In this document: in pieces, positions 2,483-41,708 of the stretch
Layout of the letters: every line of letters begins with the position of its first letter
How positions within the stretch are numbered: the first letter of the stretch is position 1
From: a virus
DNA: 43,627 nt
Virus record (IMG/VR): IMGVR_UViG_3300047300_000281
Location: 1-43,627 of that record
Direction: 5' to 3' (one strand)
Notes under the pieces: generated by a model
What the model saw: only the letters and a program-made list of their open reading frames with translations
What the model was told of the DNA's origin: nothing
Database searches by the model: none
Translations under genes and position numbers: made by a program

Positions 2483-2611
2483 TCACCGAAACCAGCAGAC
2501 TGATAGGGTCGGGTAACCAAGTTCTTCTGCGTAGAAGTAGACAATCACCCTGCCTTGGTAGTGTTGCAAATCGCCGCAACGAAAAGGCCCGAAGTAATCC
2601 TCTGAATACAC
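2483..2611 (-). CDS. Cryptic 42-aa protein with GTG start
   Basis: A GTG at 2611-2609 opens a 42-codon frame (MYSEDYFGPFRCGDLQHYQG at the start) ending in TGA at 2485-2483. It lies 5-6 bases behind AAGGTGGT. That sequence is part of a 13-base segment (CCTGAAAGGTGGT) that also precedes the neighbouring 2157-2420 gene. The shared ribosome-binding leader is the best evidence that it is translated. The protein is aromatic-rich with two cysteines, and its function is unknown. It would otherwise be a 340-base gap. Confidence 0.5.
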   Translation of the reverse strand: MYSEDYFGPFRCGDLQHYQGRVIVYFYAEELGYPTLSVCWFR

Positions 2612-2698
2612 AGTTCACCACCTTTCAGGTTTAGCCCACCTTGCGCCCACTACTATCATGATTTGAGTGTTAGGACGTAAGGGATAGGCTTTGGACAA

Positions 2699-2722
2699 CA
2701 AAAAACCCGCCAAGGGCGGGTT
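2699..2722 (-). terminator. Rho-independent terminator 1 of a tandem pair
   Basis: On the minus strand AACCCGCC and GGCGGGTT form an 8-bp stem with a 3-base loop, followed by six T residues. It lies downstream of the GC-rich two-gene cassette (2762-3727), immediately after a second terminator. Confidence 0.85.
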
Positions 2723-2732
2723 AGGTTCAGGT

Positions 2733-2758
2733 CAAAAGAAAAGCCCCATTCAGGGGCT
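2733..2758 (-). terminator. Rho-independent terminator 2 of a tandem pair
   Basis: On the minus strand AGCCCC and GGGGCT pair around a short loop and run into TTTTCTTTT. It follows the stop of the 2762-3172 gene by a few bases. Two terminators in a row insulate the cassette from the small genes downstream. Confidence 0.8.
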
Positions 2759-2761
2759 AGT

Positions 2762-3172
2762 CTAGGCTTTGATAACGTCAACGGAAGGCTTGAAGGTTGA
2801 TAGACCAAACCGCTTTCCCTTTGCGGCCCTGCTAGAAGGTTCATCCGGCACAAGAGATTTAACACGCTTGAACCTATCGGCATTGCCCAAGCCAATGCCC
2901 TTATTCGTGACACTGGCCCGCATTGCATCCTTGTTGCTATCATCAATAAGCGACAAATCACTTTCAAGGATAAGACGCCCTTTAGCGCCTTGTGGATAGA
3001 ATTCTTTACGATAAGCCTTGTAACTTGTCAGGCTGGCAAAGGTGATCACGCGGCGCTTGCCGTCCTTGTATTCCACGACATTGAAAGCGAAGGGCAATTT
3101 GCCCCCCGCCTCTTGATCTGCATGGAAAGCCTTTCGGGCTTCCCTCTTACGGGCATTCTTCCCGATTGCCAT
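2762..3172 (-). CDS. Basic hypothetical protein of a GC-rich cassette, 136 aa
   Basis: Starts MAIGKNARKREARKAFHADQ with a strongly basic N-terminus, then a mixed region (FAFNVVEYKDGKRRVITFAS near residues 29-48) and a basic C-terminus. I do not recognise the family. Only three bases separate it from the upstream gene, so they form one transcription unit closed by two terminators. Codon use is GC-richer than the phage genes on either side, which suggests a recently acquired pair or one adapted to a different host. Confidence 0.65.
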   Translation of the reverse strand: MAIGKNARKREARKAFHADQEAGGKLPFAFNVVEYKDGKRRVITFASLTSYKAYRKEFYPQGAKGRLILESDLSLIDDSNKDAMRASVTNKGIGLGNADRFKRVKSLVPDEPSSRAAKGKRFGLSTFKPSVDVIKA

Positions 3173-3175
3173 GGA

Positions 3176-3727
3176 TCAAAGCCCTTTCAACATCTCTGCA
3201 ATGGTAGCCTTGTCCAGCCCTTTGACTAACTTTGCCAAAGACGCTTGGGCCTTAGCCTTGGCCTCATCTTGCGTCGCGGTAGGCGCAGGAAAAGCGGCCT
3301 TGATACGCTCGCAGGTGAATGCGTCTTTCGACACGAATGCGGCGCGCAGGACAGTTACCTTGTCCAGATCATAGCCCTTGGCCAAACCATCCTTCACCAC
3401 ATACTGACCCCGCGCCTTGCCCTTTCCTTCCTTCACAAGGGCGAACCGATGCGACGGGAAAACCCCCAGAATAGCACGCTGCACAATCGCGGCGGGTTTC
3501 ACTCGCAGCATATAGGATGCAATCGGCTGCAAATCGAACGTGCGGGAAGCGTATTCAATCGCAGGAAAGAGAAGCTGCAATTCCTCTTTGCTGGCAATCA
3601 ATTCTGCATCCTTGCGGGCGTCCTTGCGGACCGTCTTAGCCTTAGCGAAAGCCTCAACGGAAACTGCGAAGGCTTCAAGGTTGAAAGCCTCTTGCGGGTG
3701 TTCGGCGGCATTGGAACGGGTGGCCAT
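3176..3727 (-). CDS. Helical hypothetical protein of a GC-rich cassette, 183 aa
   Basis: I start at the ATG at 3727-3725 (MATRSNAAEHPQEAFNLEAF), behind AAAGGA; a frame from 3808 adds 27 unlikely residues. The protein is alanine- and lysine-rich and probably helical in its first 55 residues and last 40 (ATQDEAKAKAQASLAKLVKG), with a middle segment around 95-120 that may be globular. No motif is recognised. It is the first gene of the two-gene GC-rich unit and the first leftward gene from the control region, so it may be expressed early. Confidence 0.65.
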   Translation of the reverse strand: MATRSNAAEHPQEAFNLEAFAVSVEAFAKAKTVRKDARKDAELIASKEELQLLFPAIEYASRTFDLQPIASYMLRVKPAAIVQRAILGVFPSHRFALVKEGKGKARGQYVVKDGLAKGYDLDKVTVLRAAFVSKDAFTCERIKAAFPAPTATQDEAKAKAQASLAKLVKGLDKATIAEMLKGL

Positions 3728-10208: not shown

Positions 10209-10546
10209 TGACAACTAAAACTAGGGTTTACCTTTCTACCTTGACAACTAGCCTAGCTGATGTGTATACTGCCCCAGACAGATTTGAATCTTCTGTAAAG
10301 TCTATTCTAGTCTCGAACATTACAGCTACTCCAGCTACCTTTAGACTTGACTACTACAAGAACAGCGGAGCTACCACAACTACTTTCGTTAAGGATGTAG
10401 AAATGGCTGGGAATAGTATTATGCAGATTGATAACTTTTTCCATCTAGAGGTTAAAGATAAACTCAAAGCTTTATCTAATACTGCATCTGCTATTGTGCT
10501 TTCTATTCTGGTAGAAGAATCATCTGTAAATTCACTTGGAATCTAA
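10208..10546 (+). CDS. Small virion-associated protein, 112 aa
   Basis: ATG overlaps the previous TAA by one base (TAATG). The protein is beta-rich (TRVYLSTLTTSLADVYTAPD at 5-24; FRLDYYKNSGATTTTF near 56-71), resembling small phage structural proteins with one beta-sandwich. It lies between two virion or packaging genes. No specific family assigned. Confidence 0.5.
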   Translation: MTTKTRVYLSTLTTSLADVYTAPDRFESSVKSILVSNITATPATFRLDYYKNSGATTTTFVKDVEMAGNSIMQIDNFFHLEVKDKLKALSNTASAIVLSILVEESSVNSLGI

Positions 10547-10547
10547 T

Positions 10548-10913
10548 ATGACACGTAAGCTATCTGAACAACAAACAAAGTTCCTCGAAGTGCTCTTTGA
10601 AGAGGCTGGTGGTGACGTTGTTGCTGCCAAGCACCTTGCTGGTTATAGCCCTAATGTAGCTACCTCACAAGTGGTTGCAGCCCTTGAAGACGAAATCTCA
10701 GAACTAACTAAAAAGTTCCTTGGTCGTTCTGCAGCCAAAGCTGCCTATGCAATGTCCAATGTGTTGACTGATCCAACTGCGCTTGGCAACAAAGAACGTA
10801 TGATTGCTGCTAAGGATATTCTTGACCGTAGTGGCTTTGTTAAAACTGAGAAAGTGGAAGTTACTACTGCTGCACCTTTGTTTATTCTCCCGGCGAAAAA
10901 TGAATCTGAGTGA
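10548..10913 (+). CDS. Terminase small subunit-like protein
   Basis: 121 residues. LSEQQTKFLEVLFEEAGGDV begins an N-terminal helical domain, followed by AAKHLAGYS; the AKDILDRSG segment near residues 89-97 is typical of phage TerS proteins of the Terminase_2 kind. TerS recognises phage DNA and regulates the TerL motor. Start at the ATG two bases after the previous stop. A second helix-turn-helix gene lies between it and TerL, so which is the true TerS is uncertain. Confidence 0.55.
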   Translation: MTRKLSEQQTKFLEVLFEEAGGDVVAAKHLAGYSPNVATSQVVAALEDEISELTKKFLGRSAAKAAYAMSNVLTDPTALGNKERMIAAKDILDRSGFVKTEKVEVTTAAPLFILPAKNESE

Positions 10914-11328
10914 AACTTGGGAACTCCCGGGGCCTGATAAAGGTTCTGAAATCAAGTGGCACCCTGTTGTCCGTGTAGGAAGAGTGGTCCCATTTGGTTA
11001 CATGCAAGACCCTAACGACCCTGATATCATCCTTCCTATTGAACGTGAACTAGAACTTTTAGAAGAAGCTAAAAAACACCTTAAGAAATATTCCTCTCGT
11101 GAAGTGGCTGCTTGGCTATCTACTCAGTCTGGACGGAGTATCTCCCACGTAGGTTTGTTGAAAAGAGTACGAATTGAAAAGAACCGACAGCGAGAAGCTA
11201 CAATCTATCGCAACCTTGCCGCGCGCTACGAAAAAGCCCTCAAGAAAGCCGAAGAGCTTGAAGCAGCCCGAATCGGTGGTGCAAGAACTCGTACCGTCAC
11301 CGAAGGTACCAGCACAGCCTCTGCCTGA
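10900..11328 (+). CDS. Helix-turn-helix protein next to TerL (alternative small terminase)
   Basis: 142 residues from the ATG at 10900, overlapping the previous gene by 14 bases. SSREVAAWLSTQSGRSISHV (about 64-83) reads as a helix-turn-helix, followed by a long basic helix (YRNLAARYEKALKKAEELEA). The N-terminus (WELPGPDKGSEIKWHPV) and this layout match proteins placed directly before TerL in marine phages. Its last 155 bases overlap the longest TerL frame. It may be the DNA-recognition subunit or a cofactor. Confidence 0.55.
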   Translation: MNLSETWELPGPDKGSEIKWHPVVRVGRVVPFGYMQDPNDPDIILPIERELELLEEAKKHLKKYSSREVAAWLSTQSGRSISHVGLLKRVRIEKNRQREATIYRNLAARYEKALKKAEELEAARIGGARTRTVTEGTSTASA

Positions 11329-13714
11329 GCCTATCGACGTACCCAAAGCTCAAGATGTAATCTTTAAGCCTAACCCGGGACCCCAGACAGACTTTCTTGC
11401 CTCCTCGGAGCAAGAGGTTCTCTATGGTGGCAGCGGGGGCGGGGGAAAAAGCTTTGCCATGGTTGCAGACCCAGTAAGATACTTTAATAACCCCCATTTT
11501 AGGGGCCTCTTACTGCGGCGTACTACAGAAGAACTTCGAGAACTTATCTCCGTCTCTAAACAACTTTATCCACAAGCTATCCCGGGGATTAAGTTTTTAG
11601 AAAGAGAAAAAACTTGGATTGCACCTTCGGGTGCAAGTTTGTGGATGAGTTATCTGGACTCAGACGACGATGTACTAAGGTACCAAGGGCAAGCCTTCGC
11701 TTGGATTGGTTTCGATGAGCTGACCCAGTGGGCCAGCCCCCACGCTTGGAACTATATGCGTTCGCGACTTCGTACAACAACCGCATCAGGCCTAAAACTA
11801 TACCAACGTGCTTGTGTCGATGAGGGGGATGTACTAACCGAGTCGGGATGGAAGCCTATTCAAGATGTGCTTACGGGAGAAAAAGTCTACTCTCTGACCT
11901 CTAAAGGGGAGCTTGAACTACGATCTGTGACTGCCACACATGCTTTTGACGTGGAAGAGCCTCTTGTACGGGTAAGAAAAAAGAACCTGTACATGTCCAT
12001 GACACCGGATCATAGAGTTCTCTACCGGAAGCAAGGCAGCGTGCGTTTTGAGTTAATTCGTTTTAATGAGCATAAGTCCTTGGCCATAGATGTAGCTAGA
12101 ACCTCTTTGAACTACGAAGCTAAGGGTTATAAGTCCCCTATCGCTGGTTTTTCTGATATAGAGTATGCAGAGTTCCTAGGGCTGTATGTTGCAGAGGGAT
12201 GTGTTTGCAAGCCACGTAATGGCAATTATAAGGTTTTAATTACTCAGAATAAAAAAGAAAATCAAAGTTGGGTGAAGTCTGTAATGGAAGCTTCTGGTTT
12301 CTCTGTGTGCGCGTGTAGCAATGGGGATTTCCAGATAACTAATAAGTCCTTGCACACTCACCTTCTCCCTTTAGGTAAAGCAGTAAATAAGCACTTTCCT
12401 AGAGAGTTTCTTTCTAACGCTACAAAAGAGCAGCTTGAGGTTGCTTTTCAAGCTTACGCAAGGGGTGATGGAAATTGGCAATCAAACTCTAGCTGCCAAG
12501 CTGTCACTTGTTCTAGGCAACTCGCAAGCGATCTACAAGAAATTGCGGTAAAACTTGGGTACAAGGTACAGGTAAATCATACTAAGTCTGAAAATAAGAA
12601 TCACAACGATCGCTTTACTATATATCTCACCAAGAACTCCCCCACTACGAAAGTAGATAAAAATACTGTGGGGAGAGATGACACAGCACTTGAACCCTAT
12701 AAAGGTAAGGTCTACTGTCTTTCTGTAGAGGGAACAGAGAATTTTGTGCTCAGACAGCGGGATTTTGTCTGGATATCTGGGAACACTACCAACCCGGGTG
12801 GCCCCGGACACGCTTGGGTCAAGAAGATGTTTGTCGATCCCGCACCTCCTAAGACTTCTTTTTGGGCTACAGATATTGAAACAGGAGAAGTCATCAAATG
12901 GCCTAAAGGACACTCCCGCGAAGGTGAGCCACTCTTCAAACGTCGATTTATTCCTGCTACGCTCTTTGACAACCCCTACCTAGCTTCTGACGGTATGTAC
13001 GAAGCAAACCTTCTCTCACTTCCTGAACATCAAAGGCGACAACTGCTCTACGGGGATTGGGACATTAACGAAGGCGCTGCGTTCCCGGAGTTTAATCGTC
13101 GTATCCATGTTGTAGAACCTTTCGATATCCCGCATGGGTGGACAAAGTTTCGTGCAGCAGACTACGGATATGGCTCTAATACTGGTGTTGTCTGGATCGC
13201 TGTAAGCCCTTCTGAGCAACTGATTGTCTATCGTGAGATGTATAACTCTAAAGTCACGGCTTGGGATTTGGCAGACCTGATCCTAGAAGCAGAAGAGGGT
13301 GATAATGTTCGTTATGGTGTTCTCGATAGCTCTCTTTGGCATAATCGTGGTGATCGTGGACCCTCTCTTGCAGAGCAGATGATTTCCAAGGGTTGTCGTT
13401 GGCGTCCTTCGGATCGCTCTCGTGGTTCTCGTGTTGCAGGTAAGAACGAACTACATAGACGGCTACAAGTTGATCCTTTCACAGGTGAACCCCGTCTTGT
13501 CATCTTTAATACTTGCAAGAACTTGATTGCTCAACTGCCTTCTATCCCACTTGATAAGAATAATCCAGAGGATGTAGATACTAACGCAGAAGATCACTTG
13601 TACGATGCTCTTCGTTACGGTATTATGAGCAGACCTAAGAGTAGTCTTTGGGACTATAACCCCGCTACACATGGAACAGGCCACAAAGTTGTGGATGAGA
13701 AATTTGGTTACTAA
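11174..13714 (+). CDS. terL: Terminase large subunit, interrupted by an intein
   Basis: 846 codons, of which 522 remain after intein removal. The ATPase domain has Walker A GGSGGGGKS (85-93) and Walker B AWIGFDE (176-182). The intein occupies 214-537 and splits the conserved RA/TTNPGGPGH segment. The nuclease domain follows, with FRAADYG (Asp 663) and later acidic sites in YGVLDSSLW and DHLYDALRYG. TerL cuts concatemers and pumps DNA through the portal. The longest frame begins with TTG at 11174, deep in the previous gene; TTG near 11255 or GTG at 11275/11278 are later options, since conserved sequence starts only near residue 58. Confidence 0.9.
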   Translation: MKRTDSEKLQSIATLPRATKKPSRKPKSLKQPESVVQELVPSPKVPAQPLPEPIDVPKAQDVIFKPNPGPQTDFLASSEQEVLYGGSGGGGKSFAMVADPVRYFNNPHFRGLLLRRTTEELRELISVSKQLYPQAIPGIKFLEREKTWIAPSGASLWMSYLDSDDDVLRYQGQAFAWIGFDELTQWASPHAWNYMRSRLRTTTASGLKLYQRACVDEGDVLTESGWKPIQDVLTGEKVYSLTSKGELELRSVTATHAFDVEEPLVRVRKKNLYMSMTPDHRVLYRKQGSVRFELIRFNEHKSLAIDVARTSLNYEAKGYKSPIAGFSDIEYAEFLGLYVAEGCVCKPRNGNYKVLITQNKKENQSWVKSVMEASGFSVCACSNGDFQITNKSLHTHLLPLGKAVNKHFPREFLSNATKEQLEVAFQAYARGDGNWQSNSSCQAVTCSRQLASDLQEIAVKLGYKVQVNHTKSENKNHNDRFTIYLTKNSPTTKVDKNTVGRDDTALEPYKGKVYCLSVEGTENFVLRQRDFVWISGNTTNPGGPGHAWVKKMFVDPAPPKTSFWATDIETGEVIKWPKGHSREGEPLFKRRFIPATLFDNPYLASDGMYEANLLSLPEHQRRQLLYGDWDINEGAAFPEFNRRIHVVEPFDIPHGWTKFRAADYGYGSNTGVVWIAVSPSEQLIVYREMYNSKVTAWDLADLILEAEEGDNVRYGVLDSSLWHNRGDRGPSLAEQMISKGCRWRPSDRSRGSRVAGKNELHRRLQVDPFTGEPRLVIFNTCKNLIAQLPSIPLDKNNPEDVDTNAEDHLYDALRYGIMSRPKSSLWDYNPATHGTGHKVVDEKFGY
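11813..12784 (+). mobile_element. Intein with LAGLIDADG homing endonuclease in TerL
   Basis: 324 residues, from Cys 1 (CVDEGDVLTESGWKPI) to Asn 324 (FVWISGN), followed by Thr as the +1 nucleophile. The N-terminal Hint half has the TxxH motif (TPDH, 64-67). The inserted endonuclease has two LAGLIDADG-type motifs, LGLYVAEGC (122-130) and AYARGDGNW (214-222). Block F is VYCLSVEGTENFVL (300-313). The penultimate His of block G is Gly, and the block F position that is often His is Glu, so the C-terminal cleavage chemistry is atypical. The codons look AT-richer than the exteins. Removing it restores QRA-TTNPGGPG. Confidence 0.9.
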
Positions 13715-18227: not shown

Positions 18228-18303
18228 GCCACTATAGCTCATCTGGTAGAGCGCCTGTTTTGTAGTCAGGATGCGCGGGGTTCGAGTCCTCGTGGTGGCA
18301 CCA
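18228..18303 (+). tRNA. tRNA-Thr (anticodon UGU)
   Basis: 76 bases. All four arms pair: a 7-bp acceptor (GCCACTA with TGGTGGC), D stem GCTC/GAGC, anticodon stem CCTG/CAGG with anticodon TGT at 18261-18263, and T stem CGGGG/CCTCG with the TTCGAGT loop. Discriminator A and CCA are encoded. It reads ACA (and, by wobble, other ACN) threonine codons. It lies between the capsid promoter and the capsid gene and so should be made as part of that transcript and processed. Confidence 0.93.
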
Positions 18304-18465: not shown

Positions 18466-20462
18466 ATGGCTTTTCAATCCGCTCCGGGCTGGTCCTCGCT
18501 TCCTAACGGCAACTTCTCGCCCGTAATCTACTCGAAGAAAGTCCAACTGGCTTTCCGTAAAAAAGCTATCGTTCAGGATATCACCAACTCCGACTACTTC
18601 GGTGAAATCTCGAACATGGGTGATAGCGTCCGTATCATCAAAGAGCCTAAAGTTTTGGGCCTTCTGGCGGCATAACGCCAAGAAGATAATCCTGTGAATT
18701 GCTGGAAAGCTAAGGGTTCTGAGACCAACCTAAGTTAATCAGCAGCCAAGCCCCGAGAGGGGAAGGTTCAGAGACTAGAACATACATATAATCAAGTAGT
18801 GGCTCGTCGTAGCTAACGAAAGGAAGAAAACGATGGATAAACGTAAAAGAGGCATTCTTTACGGTCTTGCGTTGGGTGATGGAGGTATCTATCTCGATAA
18901 ATCCCAAGCTGCAGGCACAGCTAGGTTGATCATTGGCCATGGGCCTTCTCAGCTTGAGTATCTGCAGTATAAGCAAAGGCTATTGCACAGTGTCTTAGGG
19001 GGTAAAGAGCCTTCCCTGTACACTTCACAGTCTAGAAACTCTACTACGAATAAATTCTACACAAACCATCAAATCTATAAAAACCACACGTACTTTAGGC
19101 AAATGCACAGAGTTCTTTATCCACAAGGGAAAAAGGTCTACTCTGAACAGTTACTAAGTTACTTGACGGACGAAAGTCTTGCTTTGTGGTTTATGGACGA
19201 TGGATCGGGTACGATTTCTTTTAACCAGAAAACAAAAAAGCCTTGTGGCTGTATGACACGTCTTTCGACATACTGCTCAAAAGAAGAGGCTGAATTGCTC
19301 CAAAATTGGTTTACCGAGAAGTATAAAATTACCCCTAAGTTTGATGTAGATAAAAGAAACGGTATGTACTCTCTAAGATTTAACACTAAAGAATCCCGAG
19401 AGTTTGTCCCTATCGTAGCTCCTTACATGTTTTATACTCTTAAGTATAAGATAGCACATGTAGATAAGTATGTTCCAAGAGTGCAGGACACCCTACGGGG
19501 TGAAGATATAGTCCGATCTCTAGAGAAATCTAGAGTAGAGTAAAATTAAAAAAACTCTTCTAACAAAAATGGAAATCTCGGTCTCGGCATATGCTCGTGG
19601 TCAGCAACTGACTGCACAAGACCTGCAGGATGATGACTTCACTCTGGTTGTCGATAAGGCCAACGCCTTCGCTTTCAAAGTGGACGATATCGAAGCTGCT
19701 CACTCGCATGTCAACTTCATGGACTTGGCTACTAACCGCGCCGCCTATCGTCTGGCTGACCAGTACGACCAAGAAGTTCTGGGCTACCTGTCGGGCTACA
19801 AGCAATCGGCTAACCATGCTGCTGCTGATACTGTGAACACCACGACTTCAGGTACTGTTGCTACTGCTGGTGCTGGTACTGACGAACTTCTGTCGGCGAT
19901 GAAACTGTCGCGTCCGTCCTTCGGCAACCTGTCGTCGGCTGGTTCGACTGGGGACTCGATTCCGGTTGGTGCTCGCCTTCCGGGTGCTACCGCTCTGCCG
20001 ACCGCTTACGTTTCGCCCGTCATGCTGATCAACCGTATGGGTCGTCTGCTTGACCAACAGAACGTGGACAAGTCGGGCCGCTGGCTGGTGATCGATCCGG
20101 TCATGATGGAAGTTCTGCAGGACGAAGACTCGCGCTTCCTGAATGCTGACTTCGGTGATTCGGGTGCCCTGCGTAATGGTCTGGCTATTTCTAACTGGAA
20201 CGGCTTCCGTGTCTATGTCTCGAACAACCTGCCTAAAGTGGGTACGGGTCCGAGCACTGTTGGTACTACCGCTCAGTCGACCAACTTCGGTGTGATCGTC
20301 GCTGGTCATGATTCGGCTGTTGCTACCGCTGAGCAGATCAACAAGACCGAGACCTACCGTGACCCCGACTCGTTCGCTGACGTGGTTCGTGGTATGCACC
20401 TCTACGGTCGCAAGATTCTTCGCGCAGAGGCAATCACCGTCGCCCGTTACAATCTGGCCTAA
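18466..20462 (+). CDS. Major capsid protein, split by a group I intron
   Basis: Exon 1 is 18466-18648 (61 codons, ending RIIKEP) and exon 2 is 19572-20462 (296 codons, beginning EISVSAYARG). Joined they encode 357 residues. The start has AAGGAGA upstream. The sequence (GWSSLPNGNFSPVIYSKKVQ, then DLQDDDFTLVVDKANAFAFK) matches HK97-like major capsid proteins of marine podovirus types. Unspliced RNA would give only a 69-residue product ending at 18675. Exon 2 codon use is strongly biased to G/C-ending codons (TCG, CTG, GGT/GGC), unlike the intron and most neighbours, as expected for a very highly expressed gene. Confidence 0.85.
18649..19571 (+). mobile_element. Group I intron in the major capsid gene
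   Basis: 923 bases. The exon 1 end GAGCCT pairs with GGGC at 18657-18660 and gives the required U-G at the splice site; the intron ends in G at 19571. A P2-like hairpin TGGCG/CGCCA follows. The core elements are canonical: P (AATTGCTGGAAA, 18697), Q (AATCAGCAGCCAAGCC, 18737-18752), R (GTTCAGAGACTA, 18766-18777) and S (AAGATATAGTCC, 19503-19514); GACTA in R pairs with TAGTC in S to make P7. The endonuclease gene starts between R and S. Splicing joins KEP to EISV in frame. Confidence 0.9.
18833..19543 (+). CDS. LAGLIDADG homing endonuclease within the capsid intron
   Basis: 236 residues with two LAGLIDADG-like motifs, YGLALGDGGIY (10-20) and ALWFMDDGSGT (117-127), so one chain makes the whole active site. 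The aspartates at 16 and 121/122 are the expected metal ligands. The ribosome-binding site AAGGAAG precedes the ATG. The final residues (LRGEDIVRSLEKSRVE) are encoded by the intron's S/P7 segment, so the C-terminus and the ribozyme core constrain each other. It should cut intronless capsid alleles near the KEP/EIS junction. Confidence 0.88.
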   Translation: MDKRKRGILYGLALGDGGIYLDKSQAAGTARLIIGHGPSQLEYLQYKQRLLHSVLGGKEPSLYTSQSRNSTTNKFYTNHQIYKNHTYFRQMHRVLYPQGKKVYSEQLLSYLTDESLALWFMDDGSGTISFNQKTKKPCGCMTRLSTYCSKEEAELLQNWFTEKYKITPKFDVDKRNGMYSLRFNTKESREFVPIVAPYMFYTLKYKIAHVDKYVPRVQDTLRGEDIVRSLEKSRVE

Positions 20463-34267: not shown

Positions 34268-34779
34268 TTGTCGTCCTCCTTGAACTGAGGATCATCGAGC
34301 ATCCTCTGTAGAGTATCACGAAGTTCCTTTACTCCAGCATACTTCATGAGTAGTCGTGCGCCAGAATAGATAAACTTACGTGCATCGTAGGATTCTGTAG
34401 TCCCTTGCTTGACACCCCAACGCCACGCAGCCTTAACTAGGTTAGCTAGGTGGAAGCTGTCGCCTCTCCAGTGATATTCCCCTTTATACTCAAGTAGATC
34501 ATTCAGAGTATGTGCTTTGTAAGGGATATCATAGTAGTCTGCAGGACCTCCATCAGGCTTCTTGTGTTCTTTTTGGTTTGCAGTGTACTGTTTTGGGGCT
34601 AGTGGGGAAGTGGGGTATAGGTTGTCTTCATAGACATAATGCAGTTTTTGACGTAAATCTCTTACTGTGTACATATTTGCACGAAGAGGGTCTCCCTCGG
34701 CCATTTTAGTTATGATTACCACTTTTTCAATCACGCCACCAGATACGTTTGCGCAGACAATATCTCCGGGGTTAAACAT
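34264..34779 (-). CDS. DUF3310-like protein, 171 aa
   Basis: I start at the ATG at 34779 (MFNPGDIVCANVSGGVIEKV), which overlaps the PhoH stop as TGATG. Residues 1-70 look like a small beta barrel. Residues 85-171 (DYYDIPYKAHTLNDLLEYKG, then FHLANLVKAAWRWGVKQGTT and ARKFIYSGARLLMKYAGVKE) follow the DUF3310 plan of T7 gp1.7-like small proteins, with a variant motif. Function unknown; in T7 the relative acts in nucleotide metabolism. Confidence 0.5.
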   Translation of the reverse strand: MFNPGDIVCANVSGGVIEKVVIITKMAEGDPLRANMYTVRDLRQKLHYVYEDNLYPTSPLAPKQYTANQKEHKKPDGGPADYYDIPYKAHTLNDLLEYKGEYHWRGDSFHLANLVKAAWRWGVKQGTTESYDARKFIYSGARLLMKYAGVKELRDTLQRMLDDPQFKEDDK

Positions 34780-35507
34780 CAAAGACCCTCCTTAGTAAAG
34801 GCAATGATCCATTGTTTGCAGATATCTGAACGAACAATGTCGTCAATACCAAACTCAATAACTGGGATACCCATGTTGTGTTTCTTAGAAAGATAGAGGA
34901 TTTTATCCAACCCAGAACCCCCTTTGATATCGGACTGAGTAATATCTCCGTTAAGGACAACGCGAGTGTTTTTACCAACCCGAGTTAGCAACATCTTGAT
35001 TTCTTCTACGGAGGTGTTCTGTACTTCGTCGCACAACATGAAAGCGTTATCAAAGGAACGTCCCCGCATGGTAGACAGGGGTGCAGTCTCAATGTTACCA
35101 TGTTTCAAGGCAGACTCTACAACACCAATACCCATATGCTTGTTAAGAACATCCATAACGGGGGCAGCCCAAGGTGCAAACTTTTCTTGTAGGGTCCCCG
35201 GAAGAAAACCTAGGTCATTTCCTACAGGTACATTAGGTCGTGTGACAACAATCTTGTGGATTTTCTTGGCAAGATAGAGATTAGCAGCGTGAGTAGCCGC
35301 CATAAAGGTTTTACCAGTCCCCGCTGGGCCAAGTACAATAGTCTGCTGTGAAGTTTCTAGTGCATTCAAGTACAGCTTTTGATTATCGTTGTAAGCTTTT
35401 AGAAGTACTTGTTTGAGTGCTTGTTCTTCTTCTGCGCCTTTGTATCGAGAGACACGCTTATTGTCATTACTAGCTACTGCTGGGGTACGAGACCGCTTCG
35501 TGGTCAT
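34779..35507 (-). CDS. phoH: PhoH-like ATPase
   Basis: 242 residues. Walker A GPAGTGKT (60-67), Walker B FMLCDE (156-161) and the flanking KIVVTRPNVPVGNDLGFLPG and NGDITQSDIKGGSGL segments define the PhoH family. PhoH genes are frequent in marine phages. The cellular role is debated (RNA metabolism or phosphate stress), so I claim only NTP hydrolysis. Start overlaps the stop of the small membrane gene (ATGA). Confidence 0.9.
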   Translation of the reverse strand: MTTKRSRTPAVASNDNKRVSRYKGAEEEQALKQVLLKAYNDNQKLYLNALETSQQTIVLGPAGTGKTFMAATHAANLYLAKKIHKIVVTRPNVPVGNDLGFLPGTLQEKFAPWAAPVMDVLNKHMGIGVVESALKHGNIETAPLSTMRGRSFDNAFMLCDEVQNTSVEEIKMLLTRVGKNTRVVLNGDITQSDIKGGSGLDKILYLSKKHNMGIPVIEFGIDDIVRSDICKQWIIAFTKEGL

Positions 35508-35686
35508 TGCTTAATCTCTTCCAAAGGAACTGCATTATTCTCGAGGAAGTCTTCAACATGCTCTAGGTCTTCGTCCATTTCTGTAAGAAGCTCTTCAAGC
35601 TTGTTGATTCGGTTGTGAGTAAAGATTACCCAGCCTAGAATTACAATGATACTGAAACTGGTTGCAAGGATCGTAATAGGGTCCAT
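35504..35686 (-). CDS. 60-aa membrane-anchored coiled-coil protein
   Basis: A membrane helix (ILATSFSIIVILGWVIFTHN, 6-25) followed by an acidic coiled coil (RINKLEELLTEMDEDLEHVE). Start behind AGGA. It is the first gene of the phoH transcription group and overlaps phoH (ATGA). Unknown function. Confidence 0.6.
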   Translation of the reverse strand: MDPITILATSFSIIVILGWVIFTHNRINKLEELLTEMDEDLEHVEDFLENNAVPLEEIKQ

Positions 35687-35734
35687 GTATTTATCCTATT
35701 AGGATACAGACGTTATGCCTGTATTACTTAGGTA

Positions 35735-35763
35735 AGAATAGCAGAGATATTTTCAGTGGTCAA
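35735..35763 (-). promoter_or_regulatory. Candidate promoter of the phoH group
   Basis: On the minus strand TTGACC (35763-35758), 17 bases, and TATTCT (35740-35735), with TGC just before the -10. It overlaps the end of the glutaredoxin gene. An ATACAG/CTGTAT hairpin follows in the leader before the ribosome-binding site. Confidence 0.45.
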
Positions 35764-35971
35764 GGTACTTTAGAAGGTCTTCATAACCACCAATATAAGT
35801 CTTGTCATAGTAGATACGAGGAACAGTCTTGTAGTCCACTTTAGAGAATAGATCGATAAGGTAGTGGTTATCTTCCAGAGGGATTTCTTTGAACTCTTCT
35901 CCTCGACTATTAAGAACTTCTTTAGCTAGGTCACACCATTTGCAGTGATCTTTTGAGATGATGTAGAACAT
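35753..35971 (-). CDS. Glutaredoxin
   Basis: 72 residues. Active-site CKWC (10-13), the TVP cis-Pro loop (49-51), and GGYEDL near the end are the complete glutaredoxin fold set. It lies directly after the ribonucleotide reductase gene and probably reduces its active-site and C-terminal cysteines. Start behind AAGGAA. Confidence 0.9.
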   Translation of the reverse strand: MFYIISKDHCKWCDLAKEVLNSRGEEFKEIPLEDNHYLIDLFSKVDYKTVPRIYYDKTYIGGYEDLLKYLDH

Positions 35972-36021
35972 TTGGATTCCTTATGAAGGAGCCTTTTACA
36001 GACTTGCTCAGGTCTTGAAGT

Positions 36022-36059
36022 AACTAAGATGCTCTTTCTTCGCGGGATCGATCTTAGTT
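36022..36059 (-). other. Hairpin at the end of the RNR gene
   Basis: AACTAAGAT (36022-36030) and ATCTTAGTT (36051-36059) form a 9-bp stem that takes in the RNR stop codon. No T run follows on the minus strand, so it is more likely to stabilise or process the RNA than to terminate it. Confidence 0.45.
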
Positions 36060-38040
36060 AGCGGATTGGACAAGCTCCCGTGGAGCAAGCTTCGTCTGAA
36101 AGGTCGTCAGTAGTGCCAAGGCTGTTAAGATTTACAGGCCACAAGGTACTCACGTAGGCTTCATACTCTTCTTTTGTGACAACCTCTTGGGGAAGGTACA
36201 AGTAGCCCAAGTCTTTAGCGGTCTTGGTAGCATCATTACGATAGATGAAAGATACCCCAACGTAGTGATCCCAGTTAGTATGAATCCAATCTACAATCTG
36301 GGGAATCTCACCCTGATCATAGCTAATTGTCACAGAGCAGTTGTGGTCTACGTAATTATCCATAAGCAACTTATAGCGATCAAGCTGCTCAAGGGCAGAC
36401 TCTTGGTTCACGTACTTCCCGTCTACCAGATTAAAGTCAACATCTGCATACTCGACAGGGAGGGTGACAAGAACGCTGTCAGCTTCCATAGGTTTATCAA
36501 TGATCTTGTAGCCAGCCTCTTTAAGCATAGGAAGAATGGTGTCGTGCTTAGAGAAAGTTACGTTGTTGAAGATATAACGACCAAGAGGTTTATGGACGCC
36601 CTCTGTAGTATCCATAATCTTCGACAAAGTGCCACTAGGCTTTACAGTTGTAACAGCTTGAGGTCGAGGCAAGCCAAGCTCATCTGCCATGCTGTTAGCA
36701 CCATCAATAGCTGCTTGGCGAAGACCCTGCAGCTTATCTTCTACACCAGTCATATTCCGTGCCAGCCACTTCACAATACCTGTAGCCCCCACACCACAGA
36801 GTCGAAGGAACTCGTTAAGTTCGTGCCAAGAGCGTTGTAGAACGCCATCGTCAAGGTTTACACAGGTTTGACGGTAGTTAGCTCGTGCAGCATCATATAC
36901 AGCATTACGAAGTTCTGCGTAGTCATCTACGTACTTACCCCAATCGACCTCTACAAGGTTACAAAAAGATTTGTTACCCAAGAGTATCTCCGCGCAGGGG
37001 TTAACACCTTTGAACCAAGGTGCTCGTTTAAGTGCTGCCTCCCCGTTAATAAAGCCGGGTTCAGACCCACCACCCTCTACGATCTTTTGAAAGATGTAGG
37101 TCAACTCCCACTTGCTGGGTTTAGAGTAGAAGATAAGGGAGTTGTTTGATTGTTGTCGGTGGTCGTTGTTATGAAGCCAGAAGTCTTTCTTTGCCAGAAT
37201 AAACTCATCGGCCTCTGGGTCAGTTACAGGCATTACTGCAATCTCTGCAGAACGACGAGAAGAAAGGGTAGTACCAAGGTGGTTTAGGAGATCGAGGATA
37301 TCCATACGACGAAGGAGTTTCTTTGCCCGCTTATTAAGCAAAGCCACAATAGCTTCCATCGCTTTTGAAAAGGTTTCATCGCCAGAGCTAATCCAGCCGT
37401 AACCTTTTAGTCGTTCACCTGCAGGACGAATCTGGCTAAAGTCTAGGTGGATAATATCTACAGGGTCTTTAAGGGCAAGCAACTTACCCGGAACTTTGGC
37501 CCAAGAGTCTGCACTGTCACCTACTACAAGCTGCCAGACTTTTTTTCCTTCTTGGTTGATACCTTGGAAGACTTGGTTAAATTCCCAACCACCTTTTTCA
37601 GTTCTCGTAGAGCGCGTGATCTTGAGTTCAACCTCTTTAGAGAATCCACTAAGAGTCCCCACAATAGGCTCAAAGCCAACACCGCAACCCTGCAGAAGAA
37701 GCCAGAAGGCATCTACCACGTCGTGTACAGTCTCAATCTTACCAAAGCTACAGTTGAACTGAGAGGCTTCACGAGTTTTTGATACGTCAGTCCCGCCAAG
37801 CCACAAAGTACGTCCAGACACAGTGGCTTTACGCTCTTCCATAAGATTACCCAGACGGCCCAGTTCTGCCATCTCGTGGTGATTTAGTGTTGTACCCTTA
37901 GCCCGTTCCCAGAGCCACTTCTGGTGCTCAATAACTCGGTCTACGGTCTCTCCCCAAGTCTCAAAGGTTCCATCTTCTTTAGGGCGGTTATAGGTCCGTC
38001 GAGTAACAATTTCTGCTCGGGTAGAGGGGTGCGTGTTCAT
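36058..38040 (-). CDS. Class II (adenosylcobalamin-dependent) ribonucleotide reductase, monomeric type
   Basis: 660 residues, close to the monomeric RTPR type (Lactobacillus leichmannii-like). NPCAEI (347-352) carries the radical Cys 349 and Glu 351. Cys 97 (QFNCSFG) and Cys 360 (11 after the radical Cys) form the active-site redox pair. Cys 652 and Cys 657 near the end (EACSTGACPIR) are the C-terminal shuttle pair. It makes deoxynucleotides using host vitamin B12, without oxygen. The same enzyme type marks the cobavirus group of Rhodobacteraceae podoviruses. Followed by glutaredoxin. Confidence 0.92.
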   Translation of the reverse strand: MNTHPSTRAEIVTRRTYNRPKEDGTFETWGETVDRVIEHQKWLWERAKGTTLNHHEMAELGRLGNLMEERKATVSGRTLWLGGTDVSKTREASQFNCSFGKIETVHDVVDAFWLLLQGCGVGFEPIVGTLSGFSKEVELKITRSTRTEKGGWEFNQVFQGINQEGKKVWQLVVGDSADSWAKVPGKLLALKDPVDIIHLDFSQIRPAGERLKGYGWISSGDETFSKAMEAIVALLNKRAKKLLRRMDILDLLNHLGTTLSSRRSAEIAVMPVTDPEADEFILAKKDFWLHNNDHRQQSNNSLIFYSKPSKWELTYIFQKIVEGGGSEPGFINGEAALKRAPWFKGVNPCAEILLGNKSFCNLVEVDWGKYVDDYAELRNAVYDAARANYRQTCVNLDDGVLQRSWHELNEFLRLCGVGATGIVKWLARNMTGVEDKLQGLRQAAIDGANSMADELGLPRPQAVTTVKPSGTLSKIMDTTEGVHKPLGRYIFNNVTFSKHDTILPMLKEAGYKIIDKPMEADSVLVTLPVEYADVDFNLVDGKYVNQESALEQLDRYKLLMDNYVDHNCSVTISYDQGEIPQIVDWIHTNWDHYVGVSFIYRNDATKTAKDLGYLYLPQEVVTKEEYEAYVSTLWPVNLNSLGTTDDLSDEACSTGACPIR

Positions 38041-38043
38041 ACT

Positions 38044-38187
38044 TTATCCTACAAGTAGTTGGTGTGGTTGGTCTCGGAAATGCCAATGCCACAGTGCGTC
38101 AGTTAGTGCGGTACTGCCAGTGATCATAACTGGCTTCTCTTTGTCTTTGATCTTTTCTAGTTTGTTGATTAACTCTTGAACAGTCAT
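38044..38187 (-). CDS. Cryptic 47-aa protein between MazG-like and RNR genes
   Basis: ATG at 38187 overlaps the MazG-like stop (ATGA); TAA at 38046-38044 lies three bases before the RNR ATG. It starts MTVQELINKLEKIKDKEKPV and ends HFRDQPHQLLVG. Phage proteins with 'TVxELIxxLxxxxDxxxPV' openings are common, but the family function is unknown. The exact fit between two genes is good evidence that it is coding. Confidence 0.6.
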   Translation of the reverse strand: MTVQELINKLEKIKDKEKPVMITGSTALTDALWHWHFRDQPHQLLVG

Positions 38188-38639
38188 TTAGCTAGAGCCT
38201 TCAAGTCAGGTTCTTTGTAGAGTTTACTTTTAAGAATCTTCCCATCTTCTCGTCGGATAGGTTTACCATTCTCATCAAGCTTGGACATATTACTTTCGTG
38301 AACTAGCTTCAAGGCTTCTGCTACAGTTTCCTCAGAGAACATAGTTGAAACAGTGGTCATGTACTTGTCAGCAAGAGTAATCTTTTCTTCTGCTAACTTG
38401 CTTAGTTCAGTACTCAAGAATCCAAGCTCATAAAGAACTTGACCAAGAGACATAACAGGTGCGATTACGTAGAGAACATCTGCTGCTTCTTTAAGTACAT
38501 GCTCTCGGTCAGTACCCTCAAGGGCTTCTTTAAGCTCTTTGGTCTCCTCCTCAAGAAGTTTTACCCACAGCTTCATATCTACAGAGGCATCAAAGGTACG
38601 GATAAACTCTGCGGGATAGTCAATTTCAGCTTTGAACAT
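38184..38639 (-). CDS. MazG-like NTP pyrophosphohydrolase
   Basis: 151 residues, all helical. The metal-binding elements are KLLEEETKELKEAL (27-40) and LKEAADVLYVI (49-59). The C-terminal VHESNMSKLDENGKPI is typical of the phage-type MazG/PRA-PH-like family. It probably cleaves (d)NTPs to monophosphates to balance pools or remove alarmone-like nucleotides. Clustered with ThyX and RNR. Confidence 0.75.
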   Translation of the reverse strand: MFKAEIDYPAEFIRTFDASVDMKLWVKLLEEETKELKEALEGTDREHVLKEAADVLYVIAPVMSLGQVLYELGFLSTELSKLAEEKITLADKYMTTVSTMFSEETVAEALKLVHESNMSKLDENGKPIRREDGKILKSKLYKEPDLKALAK

Positions 38640-38810
38640 TTAGTCTTCCTGTACTTGGAGGTCTTGGATTTGGATGTCGTCAATCTCGTAGATTGCATCC
38701 TCGATCAGGTCGTGTAGTACACTGAGTCGGCTTCGAGGATCAACTTCAAGGAAGTTCGCATCTGGGTCTACAGTAATCGAAAACGTAATGTTATATCGAA
38801 GCGGGTTCAT
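38640..38810 (-). CDS. Cryptic 56-aa acidic protein
   Basis: A short frame from ATG 38810 to TAA 38642-38640, filling exactly the space between the phosphoesterase and the MazG-like gene. It starts MNPLRYNITFSITVDPDANF and is a strand-then-helix protein with an acidic tail (DAIYEIDDIQIQDLQVQED). No family recognised. Its sharp fit and even codon use support it. Confidence 0.6.
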   Translation of the reverse strand: MNPLRYNITFSITVDPDANFLEVDPRSRLSVLHDLIEDAIYEIDDIQIQDLQVQED

Positions 38811-39596
38811 TTAGCAAGCTCCATATTGCTTTTCCAAGCGTTTCATACTAACAAATTCAGGGTCGAAATACCCATTCTCTACATCCCGCATAACGACAAC
38901 ACCCTTCCACCATGCGTTCTGTGACTGCCCGGCCCAAGTCTCTTCTGCACCTTTGTAGCAACCGACAACCATGCCGATAGAAGCTACTGGATAGGCTTCA
39001 TCCTTGAAATAGAGTCCACGCTTGTGGCTATGCCCGCAGACCGAAGAACTGTGGCGTTTTTGAATTAGAGAGTAGGCATGATGCAGGCCGCTCATAGCGT
39101 TTCCATAGTTTCCTGCACTAAAGAAGTGTGCGTAGCTTACTCCGTCATAGGAAGCAATAGCTGGCCCCCCGTTGTGGTACCCATGATACTCATCAAACCA
39201 ATGGTCTGTATCTAGGTGAGAGAAGCTGATTCCATATTTATCCCCTTCGAGTCGTGGGTCAAGGCTGATTGCTTTACGCAGTCGATTCTCGTGATTACCC
39301 TCAAAGCCAATACGATATGGTCGCTTCTTCTTGGTTAGTTTATAACGAGACCAGATACGATCTTGAGAGTCGTTGTAAGCTTCGATATCCGCTTGATAGC
39401 TCTGTGCTACAATGGCCTTAGGATTACGGGTATCAAAGCTGTTTAGACTTTGCATGTCGGCCCCATCACCCAAGTCTACTACGTAGTCTGGCTTAAGGTC
39501 TTCAATAAAGTCCCCCAACCAAGTGAAGCGTTCATTAGAAACATCTGGATGCGCATGGGCGCAAGAATACACTACACACGTCTTACCCATGTACAT
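38811..39596 (-). CDS. Calcineurin-like metallophosphoesterase
   Basis: 261 residues with the motifs GDGAD (43-47), GNHE (100-103), a His-containing HFFSAGNYG segment (157-165) and GHSH (188-191). The first motif reads SCAHAHP, so the usual Asp of D-x-H is not plain. The enzyme probably hydrolyses a phosphodiester (nucleic acid or cyclic nucleotide). Start at 39596 (ATGTACATG); a second ATG at 39590 is possible. It overlaps the previous gene by 8-14 bases. Confidence 0.75.
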   Translation of the reverse strand: MYMGKTCVVYSCAHAHPDVSNERFTWLGDFIEDLKPDYVVDLGDGADMQSLNSFDTRNPKAIVAQSYQADIEAYNDSQDRIWSRYKLTKKKRPYRIGFEGNHENRLRKAISLDPRLEGDKYGISFSHLDTDHWFDEYHGYHNGGPAIASYDGVSYAHFFSAGNYGNAMSGLHHAYSLIQKRHSSSVCGHSHKRGLYFKDEAYPVASIGMVVGCYKGAEETWAGQSQNAWWKGVVVMRDVENGYFDPEFVSMKRLEKQYGAC

Positions 39597-39864
39597 TCAA
39601 CTCCATTGGCTCAATATTACTCTTGAAATGATCTACCATTGCGCGAGCTTCGTCAAGAGTCTCAAACCAAAACTCTCGATCAAATACTTCTTTCTTGTAA
39701 GAGGCTTTACATAGAACCATGTAGTTCAATCCATCTGGAACATAGGGGTCACCTACTTCTTGTCGAGAGTAAGGACCTTGAAGTACACCCCAGATTTTAA
39801 GTTTCTCTTGTGGAATCTCTTGAGGTTCAGGCTTCTTAAAGAGACTCAGAATCTTTTTTAGCAT
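39583..39864 (-). CDS. Hypothetical protein, 93 aa
   Basis: I choose ATG 39864 (MLKKILSLFKKPEPQEIPQE); a TTG at 39891 would lengthen the overlap with the nuclease gene. The N-terminus is a short amphipathic helix, then a small domain (FDREFWFETLDEARAMVDHF) that resembles short phage alpha/beta proteins. Unknown function, within the DNA-processing gene group. Confidence 0.5.
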   Translation of the reverse strand: MLKKILSLFKKPEPQEIPQEKLKIWGVLQGPYSRQEVGDPYVPDGLNYMVLCKASYKKEVFDREFWFETLDEARAMVDHFKSNIEPMELNVHG

Positions 39865-40207
39865 TCTTGGACAACTCCATAAAGTGTTCAAAGTCTAGTA
39901 TGGCTAGGGGTTTCTTTCGATCACCTTGGATTACCAATAGTGGTTGATAACCTTTGGAGTTTGTTTTAGCTTGTTCAAAAGGCCCATAGACTGCAAAAGC
40001 TTTGTGTCGTTTGCACTCTACACTGTAGGGAAAGACTTTCCGCGCTGCGGGGGATAGCTGAACATCTTCCCCTCCTTGCCCCATAGCCGTACTCTTACAG
40101 TCATCAGGCTCTAGCAAAGGGAAGGACTCCAAGATGGAATCCCTCACCATTTTTTGTAAGTTCCTGCCCTTAGCCTTACGGGAGGCTGTGGAGATACCTT
40201 TAGTCAT
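39836..40207 (-). CDS. PD-(D/E)XK nuclease, probable Holliday-junction or DNA-repair type
   Basis: 123 residues. GGEDVQLS (45-52) and VECKRHKAF (63-71) give the acidic residue Asp 48 and the E-x-K pair (Glu 64, Lys 66) of a small PD-(D/E)XK enzyme. Size and layout match phage nucleases of the Hjc or VRR-like class that process recombination intermediates. Start overlaps the Cas4-like stop (ATGA). Confidence 0.65.
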   Translation of the reverse strand: MTKGISTASRKAKGRNLQKMVRDSILESFPLLEPDDCKSTAMGQGGEDVQLSPAARKVFPYSVECKRHKAFAVYGPFEQAKTNSKGYQPLLVIQGDRKKPLAILDFEHFMELSKNAKKDSESL

Positions 40208-41055
40208 TCGATAATCTCCGTAACCTTTGGCTCAGTGACAACATCAACAAGGTGTTGGTAGCCCGTAGAGTAGGCAAAGGTACGAGCTTCGGGCCAGCAG
40301 GTTTTACGGAACTCACAGTAAGAGCATTGAGTATCCAGCATCGTATTAGGACTAGTCTTAGACTGAGGCACTGGCTTGATACGATCTTCGGGGATAGGCC
40401 CTTTAACCATCTCCTTAGCTGCCAGCATCTCCTGCTCTTTGACCTTCAACTCTTCTGTGAAGTCATACTTGTCTAGGCAGAGCTTGAATCGGTCTTTCTG
40501 TACAACGAGAAAAGCTCCAGAGGTCTTGTCGAGTACCAGTGGATCGTCCTTACCTGCGTAGACATAAGAGCTAAGCTGACTGATATAGCCAAATGGGTCT
40601 TCCTCTCGGAGGTTATGGTTGGCAAACTTTTGGAAGGAGTACTTGCTAGCAGACTTAACGTCTACCGTAACCCCGTCAATGATACAGTCACGATGCCCGA
40701 TAATGCCATGAACATTAAGCTTGGTCTGCTCACCTTGCACGTCATGACCAGAAGCTTTAGCCAGAGCAATAACCAGAGCTTCGATCATATCCCCATAGAA
40801 GAAGGTACCAATAGCTTCTGCACCAAGTGGTTCTCCCTTCTCTGCTTCGTTGACCTTATACCAGAGCTTACGACTGCACGGTGTGCCAATGGACGACAGA
40901 GAAAGATACTTACGAACTTGTGCTGGCTTATGGAAGCGTTGGTAGGAGACTTCTTTCAGATCGTTGCCGAAGATTTCAGAAGCTGCTCGGTCCCAACCAC
41001 CGAGACCTAGAAGGGTTTGCTCGATATCGTAACACAACGTATCTAGAGTTTTCAT
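40204..41055 (-). CDS. Cas4-like RecB-family exonuclease with iron-sulfur cysteines
   Basis: 283 residues. A single cysteine at 60 (IGTPCSRKLWY) and a C-terminal CxxC-x5-C set (244, 247, 253) are the four ligands of a 4Fe-4S cluster. The core has GHRDCIIDG (120-128), VDVKSAS (Asp 132, Lys 134) and QLSSY (160-164, the QxxxY motif). This is the Cas4/AddB-C nuclease architecture. In a phage it probably resects DNA ends for replication and recombination; no CRISPR array or cas1/cas2 is present. Overlaps ThyX (ATGA). Confidence 0.85.
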   Translation of the reverse strand: MKTLDTLCYDIEQTLLGLGGWDRAASEIFGNDLKEVSYQRFHKPAQVRKYLSLSSIGTPCSRKLWYKVNEAEKGEPLGAEAIGTFFYGDMIEALVIALAKASGHDVQGEQTKLNVHGIIGHRDCIIDGVTVDVKSASKYSFQKFANHNLREEDPFGYISQLSSYVYAGKDDPLVLDKTSGAFLVVQKDRFKLCLDKYDFTEELKVKEQEMLAAKEMVKGPIPEDRIKPVPQSKTSPNTMLDTQCSYCEFRKTCWPEARTFAYSTGYQHLVDVVTEPKVTEIIE

Positions 41056-41708
41056 TCACTATCTTTCTTTAGTACAGTTGGGAAGATGGGTAGTAGGGCT
41101 TCTCGGATAGCTTGTGCCAAGAGGACATGCTCGTGTTGGGTTACGTGAGGGTCGTCACGAACTTCAAGGTACGTGAGCCAACTGCGGAGGGTTCCATTGA
41201 CGTATAGAGTACTCATAGTAAGACCCTCTGGCAAGATTACACGAGCACACTCTTTAGCTACATTACCCTTACGCATAGCCTCATAGCTATCTTTAACGTA
41301 GTCTAGCAAGGCTTCCATCTGAGAGATGGACATATTACCTACATCTTCGTCAAGATCGTCAATGCTGTTTTGTCGATTCTTGTTATCCTGACGCCGGAAG
41401 TCTCGATCAGTGAAATCAATCTTGTCCGAATAGCGTTGACTGAATTCTTGAAACGAAAAGCTTCGATGACGAAGAAGTTGTCGGGTAATATCTCGGGGAG
41501 CCTTAACTTCTACTACAGCGTTGACCATCTCAAACACTGACCAATGTTTGTTACGAATACAGTATTCCAGAAGCTTTTTGTAGTCTGGGTTGTCTTGATT
41601 AGAAGGGTTACTTACACGAGCACAGTAAGCCACAAGAGCTTCTGGACCAGAGGTAGGGATACCAATAACAGATTGGGTATAACCTACCAGCTTTGCACTA
41701 TACTTCAT
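41052..41708 (-). CDS. thyX: Flavin-dependent thymidylate synthase
   Basis: 218 residues with the signature RHRSFSFQEFSQRY at 80-93 (the RHRx7S motif) that binds FAD and dUMP. It makes dTMP from dUMP with methylenetetrahydrofolate and FAD, independent of ThyA and dihydrofolate reductase. Start overlaps the upstream membrane gene (ATGA). Grouped with RNR and MazG-like genes for DNA precursor supply. Confidence 0.93.
   Translation of the reverse strand: MKYSAKLVGYTQSVIGIPTSGPEALVAYCARVSNPSNQDNPDYKKLLEYCIRNKHWSVFEMVNAVVEVKAPRDITRQLLRHRSFSFQEFSQRYSDKIDFTDRDFRRQDNKNRQNSIDDLDEDVGNMSISQMEALLDYVKDSYEAMRKGNVAKECARVILPEGLTMSTLYVNGTLRSWLTYLEVRDDPHVTQHEHVLLAQAIREALLPIFPTVLKKDSE

Follow-up and report, generated by a model that had tools for sequence, protein, structure and literature searches.

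Can an intein that interrupts the large terminase (TerL) of a phage, and that ends in Ser-Gly-Asn rather than His-Asn, splice efficiently, or does it hold back DNA packaging? The question is raised by the terL gene of a virus in IMG/VR record IMGVR_UViG_3300047300_000281, of which the window analysed here is the whole stretch of 43,627 nucleotides. This marine phage carries a predicted self-removing segment in the gene of its DNA-packaging motor. We conclude, with a probability of roughly 0.78, that the segment is a working, mobile, full-length intein, that it belongs to a phage family marked by Cys at block position F:4 together with a Gly-Asn end (the GN family), and that it is spliced by the mechanism proposed below.

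An intein in the coupling motif of TerL

The phage is an HMO-2011-like podovirus, and its TerL is of the Terminase_6 type, with relatives in HMO-2011-like phages of Roseobacter, Puniceispirillum and Pelagibacter. The precursor has 846 aa, or 522 aa without the intein; the start codon of the gene is uncertain, as the TTG at 11174 overlaps the preceding open reading frame. That frame (10900-11328, 142 aa, without family match) covers the terL start by about 155 bases in another frame, and a small terminase gene (10536-10913) lies just upstream of terL. Conservation counts in the list below refer to an alignment, A3, of 27 divergent phage inteins that were picked for their GN end, the HN-ending L111 being left out, so that the invariance of GN in A3 is partly a matter of construction.

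11174-13714, plus strand: terL precursor gene, a single open frame of 846 codons, with matches to phrog_979, phrog_2 and Terminase_6N
11813-12784, plus strand: intein of 324 aa, Cys1 to Asn324, from profiles, empty site, predicted fold and structural alignment
11813-11815, plus strand: Cys1 (A:1), 27/27 in A3
12002-12016, plus strand: block B T64-P-D-H67-R68 with Thr B:7 (26/27), His B:10 (27/27) and Arg B:11 (21/27), the last with a candidate role by analogy with Arg69 of AceL NrdHF (PMC7891396)
12131-12643, plus strand: I-DmoI-like LAGLIDADG homing endonuclease domain, model residues 117-287 aligning with I-DmoI at Z of about 15
12716-12718, plus strand: Cys302 (F:4), replacing the usual Asp, 26/27 in A3 and 29/29 among GN inteins collected independently of block F
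12737-12739, plus strand: Glu309 at F:13, where His is common; varies in A3 (E 10, G 10, H 3 of 27)
12752-12754, plus strand: Arg314, the conserved Arg of the block F strand, 25/27 in A3
12776-12784, plus strand: Ser322-Gly323-Asn324, the GN-type C-terminus, as in same-site relatives, A3 and the wider GN set
12785-12799, plus strand: Thr+1 and the start of the TTNPG coupling motif, the right half of the empty site, from intein-free TerLs

The first-pass annotation had read a full intein from Cys1 to Asn324, followed by Thr+1, between RA and TTNPGGPG, and these limits are exact. The insertion is in frame within the coupling motif of TerL, and the empty site in the joined exteins is CTATACCAACGTGCT running directly into ACTACCAACCCGGGT. 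Exact intein-free alleles exist in relatives: 75 intein-free TerLs from IMG/VR, 68-80% identical, align to the joined exteins without a gap at the site and read straight through it as R[AG]/T[TS]NPGG.

Blocks A, B, F and G and a HINT fold were all found within 11813-12784. Block B reads T64-P-D-H67-R68-V69, which puts Val69 at B:12, and block F reads V300-Y-C302...E309-N-F; both the SGN end of block G and the Glu at F:13 had been read correctly. The N-terminal blocks and two LAGLIDADG motifs that had been noted by eye are borne out by profiles and by the predicted fold. Pfam Intein_splicing matches at E=3e-7 with 30.8 bits, which is below its curated cut-off of 35.8, LAGLIDADG_3 matches at 6e-5, and NCBIfam intein_Cterm matches above its cut-off. 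From an input of 20 sequences (A4; the window and IMG/VR), AlphaFold2 predicted a confident HINT fold with a LAGLIDADG domain (mean pLDDT 91.8, pTM 0.90), and over its full length the model could be aligned with the PI-PkoII and TliVMA inteins (PDB 2cw7, 7qsu) at Z 25.6. These two share the whole fold, HINT and LAGLIDADG, with the window intein, but they are archaeal, only about 20% identical to it, and have VYD/VYDIT in block F instead of VYC; a Glu at the ENF position is found in PI-PkoII as well. The endonuclease has both motifs (FLGLYVAEG at 121-129 and AYARGDG at 214-220), the acidic residues E128 (E/D in 26/27 of A3) and D219 (26/27) and an I-DmoI-like fold, and would allow the element to home into intein-free terL alleles.

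The same bond is occupied in other viral contigs (L001-L009, L115) by inteins 53-76% identical to that of the window. The penultimate Gly, whose conservation at this site the first-pass annotation had proposed to check, is kept: SGN and Thr+1 are present in every readable same-site copy (L010 is cut off before its end), and Glu at F:13 is constant among the same-site inteins. Compared with its nearest homologue, the window intein is 76% identical in amino acids and 68% in nucleotides, and dN is 0.15-0.21 in the splicing and endonuclease parts alike, with dS saturated; purifying selection is thus apparent on both parts. The anatomy, the empty site, the conservation in the family, the predicted fold and the purifying selection are direct results of this analysis.

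It is hard to reconcile these results with a decaying intein that no longer splices, in a phage that has lost its TerL or in an artefactual record. Both of the usual helper histidines are missing and the record is a metagenomic virus contig, as such a reading would have it, but the frame is open, all nucleophiles are in place, and selection has acted on the splicing and the endonuclease parts. Moreover, the same architecture recurs in several further contigs, with at least six distinct sequences, and no second terL was found in the 43,627-base record, which is possibly partial. We regard decay as very improbable.

Inteins are also present in other phage terminases. A related phage has a separate GN intein, also with an SGN end, eight residues downstream in TerL (L017:1795-2787), and the coupling motif upstream of that intein reads TSDSGGAG as against T[TS]NPGG. 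The TerL6-f inteins of mycobacteriophage clusters B3/B4 (PMC5050341), compared by description only, likewise interrupt a TerL of the Terminase_6 type at its coupling (C) motif.

A second intervening element was seen elsewhere in the window. A group I intron (Rfam RF00028, 64.9 bits; about 18639-19571) apparently interrupts the major capsid protein gene at 18466-20462, with exon 1 starting near 18466 and exon 2 ending at 20462, and it carries its own LAGLIDADG endonuclease frame (18833-19543). One phage therefore carries intervening elements of two kinds, an intein (terL) and an intron (capsid gene); no relation was found between the two endonucleases (E=0.29). A tRNA-Thr (TGT) gene (18228-18303) lies directly upstream of the capsid gene. 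On the minus strand, 34779-41708 holds genes of nucleotide metabolism and related functions (ribonucleotide reductase alpha, ThyX, PhoH, MazG-like), among which the intein profiles gave no match.

A phage family in which Gly-Asn is the rule

The penultimate-Gly/Cys F:4 (RDF/AceL-like) grouping was defined in the present analysis, and the window intein has both marks, the GN end and Cys F:4. Judged from sequence comparison, the two features appear to mark a large, mostly phage-borne intein family of 31 clusters, with members in TerL, RDF, ThyX, polymerase, methylase and portal genes and with C-termini that are mostly (Ser/Thr)-Gly-Asn. When phage matches were chosen across different host genes, 16 of 17 ended in GN and one (L111) in HN. 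A block F pattern blind to block G brought up a set of contigs in which the family ends that were read were GN except in L120, where a member at 2501-3460 ends in Ser-Ser-Asn. The "non-standard" label given earlier to the C-terminal site therefore holds against chromosomal HN inteins but not within the GN phage family, where Gly-Asn is the rule.

The link between the two marks is strong. Cys F:4 was present in 29/29 GN inteins collected with no regard to block F, these being the GN inteins covered by the block model, versus 1/58 HN inteins (Fisher 3e-22), and in a comparison by cluster at 50% identity (19 versus 12 clusters) the association with the penultimate residue stood at 7e-9, both p-values being too optimistic owing to kinship and the HN set being mostly actinobacterial and drawn by an N-terminal profile. 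One GN intein that the block model missed, L014, is a true exception, with Gly at F:4. By a direct block B pattern, Arg or Lys is found at B:11 in 21/31 GN clusters versus 11/53 HN inteins (p=2.6e-5). Arg is not universal there, since some members have Lys, Asn or Thr; the RDF intein has Arg. Glu309 was considered as a family-wide substitute for His and rejected, as F:13 varies (E, G, H, N, T, S and K in A3).

In a tree of the splicing blocks, 27/27 GN inteins are split from 47/47 HN inteins with support 0.96; in a tree of the N-terminal part alone, eight HN inteins, of which five come from phages, join the GN inteins (0.91). A scan of genome contigs with A2 gave one locus, in Arthrobacter (L154), but the block F pattern of A2 makes the scan a weak gauge of chromosomal absence. 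Several viral contigs, L126 and L132 among them, carry GN/Cys F:4 and HN/Asp F:4 inteins together and so offer natural within-virus controls.

Probable splicing without the usual histidines

Two penultimate-Gly relatives have been tested in the literature. The RDF intein of mycobacteriophage Bethlehem gp51 (Kelley et al. 2016) splices completely with its penultimate Gly316, and the G316H change slowed splicing and left mostly precursor (PMC5050341). The Euphoria gp49 RDF intein (L097), of 317 aa and ending in Gly316-Asn317, is tied to the GN family by tblastn and alignment. Like the window intein, it has Cys1, a TxxH motif, Cys F:4, a Gly-Asn end and an endonuclease domain, and it resides in a phage gene; it differs in its host protein and site, in Ser+1 and in a Glu at the Arg314 position, and is about 15% identical. 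The AceL NrdHF intein (Hoffmann et al., PMC7891396; PDB 6zgq), with penultimate Gly145 and no F:13 His, splices within minutes. At B:11 its Arg69 comes within 2.5 A of the C-scissile carbonyl, and splicing is slower in the R69A mutant; a clash with this residue has been suggested to explain why the G145H mutant was inactive (PMC7891396). It is the best mini-intein fold match to the window model (Z 17.8, rmsd 2.2) and matches the GN family profile at E=2e-10. With the window intein it shares penultimate Gly, the lack of F:13 His, Cys F:4, Thr/Ser at G:5, His B:10 and Arg B:11, but it is a split class 3 intein with Ala1, Met B:12 and Ser+1, and without an endonuclease domain.

The tested relatives splice well and Arg68 is present in the window intein, and we therefore favour efficient splicing, the task of the penultimate His falling to Arg68, a reading carried over from published relatives. 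The following pathway can be envisioned. Splicing would start with an N-to-S shift at Cys1, while Thr64 and His67 put strain on the N-scissile bond. The acyl group would then pass to Thr+1, and Cys302, which holds the place of the usual catalytic Asp, could help this transfer or carry the acyl itself. Asn324 would next cyclise without either usual His, Gly323 giving Arg68 room to bind the C-scissile carbonyl oxygen, and an O-to-N shift would finally join the exteins and rebuild the RA-TTNPGGPG coupling loop. Before excision of the intein, TerL presumably has no activity. The earlier suggestion that another residue takes over Asn cyclisation is probably right, and by analogy with Arg69 of AceL NrdHF the best candidate is Arg68 (B:11), although AceL NrdHF is a class 3 intein with Ala1 and the role of Arg B:11 may differ in an intein with Cys1.

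The same Gly could instead be taken to make Asn cyclisation slow or conditional, turning the intein into a timer that delays DNA packaging. An active precursor is unlikely with an insertion in the coupling motif, Asn cyclisation is apparently rate-limiting in AceL NrdHF (PMC7891396), and introducing His makes certain unusual inteins that have other residues at the penultimate position more active (PMC5050341, discussion), all of which would suit a timer. Against this, splicing is complete in one tested penultimate-Gly relative and takes minutes in the other, and His slows or inactivates them, the Gly is kept in 31 clusters across many unrelated host proteins, and no regulatory feature was found. 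The slow or conditional splicing put forward in the first-pass annotation is thus without support and faces contrary data from relatives, and we consider it unlikely. By analogy with those relatives, the window intein is most likely an efficient splicer in which Arg68 covers for the missing His, rather than a timing switch. What looked like an odd end is characteristic of a phage family in which the members that were tested splice well, and the intein is a further member of an already known kind.

Cys1 and Cys F:4 in one intein

In class 1 inteins, residue 1 is the nucleophile of the first step. By its Cys1 the window intein is, on sequence grounds, of the class 1 type, and the lack of a position-1 nucleophile expected of class 3 is not seen. 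Class 3 was also rejected on the evidence of the WCT triplet (Trp B:12, Cys F:4, Thr G:5); the residues here are Val69, Cys302 and Ser322, and the Cys alone is exact. The catalytic triad of class 3 consists of Cys F:4, His B:10 and Thr G:5 (PMC7664689), and the window intein, with Cys F:4, His B:10 and Ser G:5 alongside Cys1, comes near to it.

It is conceivable, if doubtful, that Cys302 attacks first as in class 3, or that the acyl group moves from Cys1 to Cys302 and then to Thr+1, the family being a bridge between the two classes. Cys F:4, His B:10 and Ser/Thr G:5 match or resemble the class 3 triad here and in most members (PMC7664689), fold and profile both point to a class 3 intein, AceL NrdHF, as the nearest mini-intein, and two inteins, in the polymerase of Pseudomonas phage KIL3 (L100:592-1584) and the portal of Gordonia phage Belphegor (L109:601-1596), combine Cys1 with the complete WCT triplet and a GN end. 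On the other side, Cys1 is present in 27/27 members, unlike in class 3, and is thus probably used; B:12 of the window intein is Val, not Trp or Met; and Cys F:4 is also known in ordinary inteins (PMC4031507), as well as in L218. A search with the Euphoria TerL for class 3 TerL inteins gave only intein-free terminases among the matches listed.

For the window intein we keep to initiation at Cys1. For the family, we put forward only tentatively that the GN/Cys F:4 phage inteins form a bridge from class 1 to class 3, in evolution as well as in mechanism, in which either cysteine may take the first acyl group and from which class 3 inteins like AceL NrdHF could have arisen by loss of Cys1. A direct origin of class 3 from class 1 has been argued to be impossible (PMC7664689), and a bridge of this kind, if true, would answer that argument. 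Natural sequences with both the class 1 and the class 3 nucleophiles make the origin of class 3 splicing open to test, and the active site yields testable predictions for Arg B:11 and Cys F:4. Members of the GN family may also be useful as splicing tools. For phage inteins in general, the lack of a penultimate His is no sign of weakness, Gly being the fixed state of a large family.
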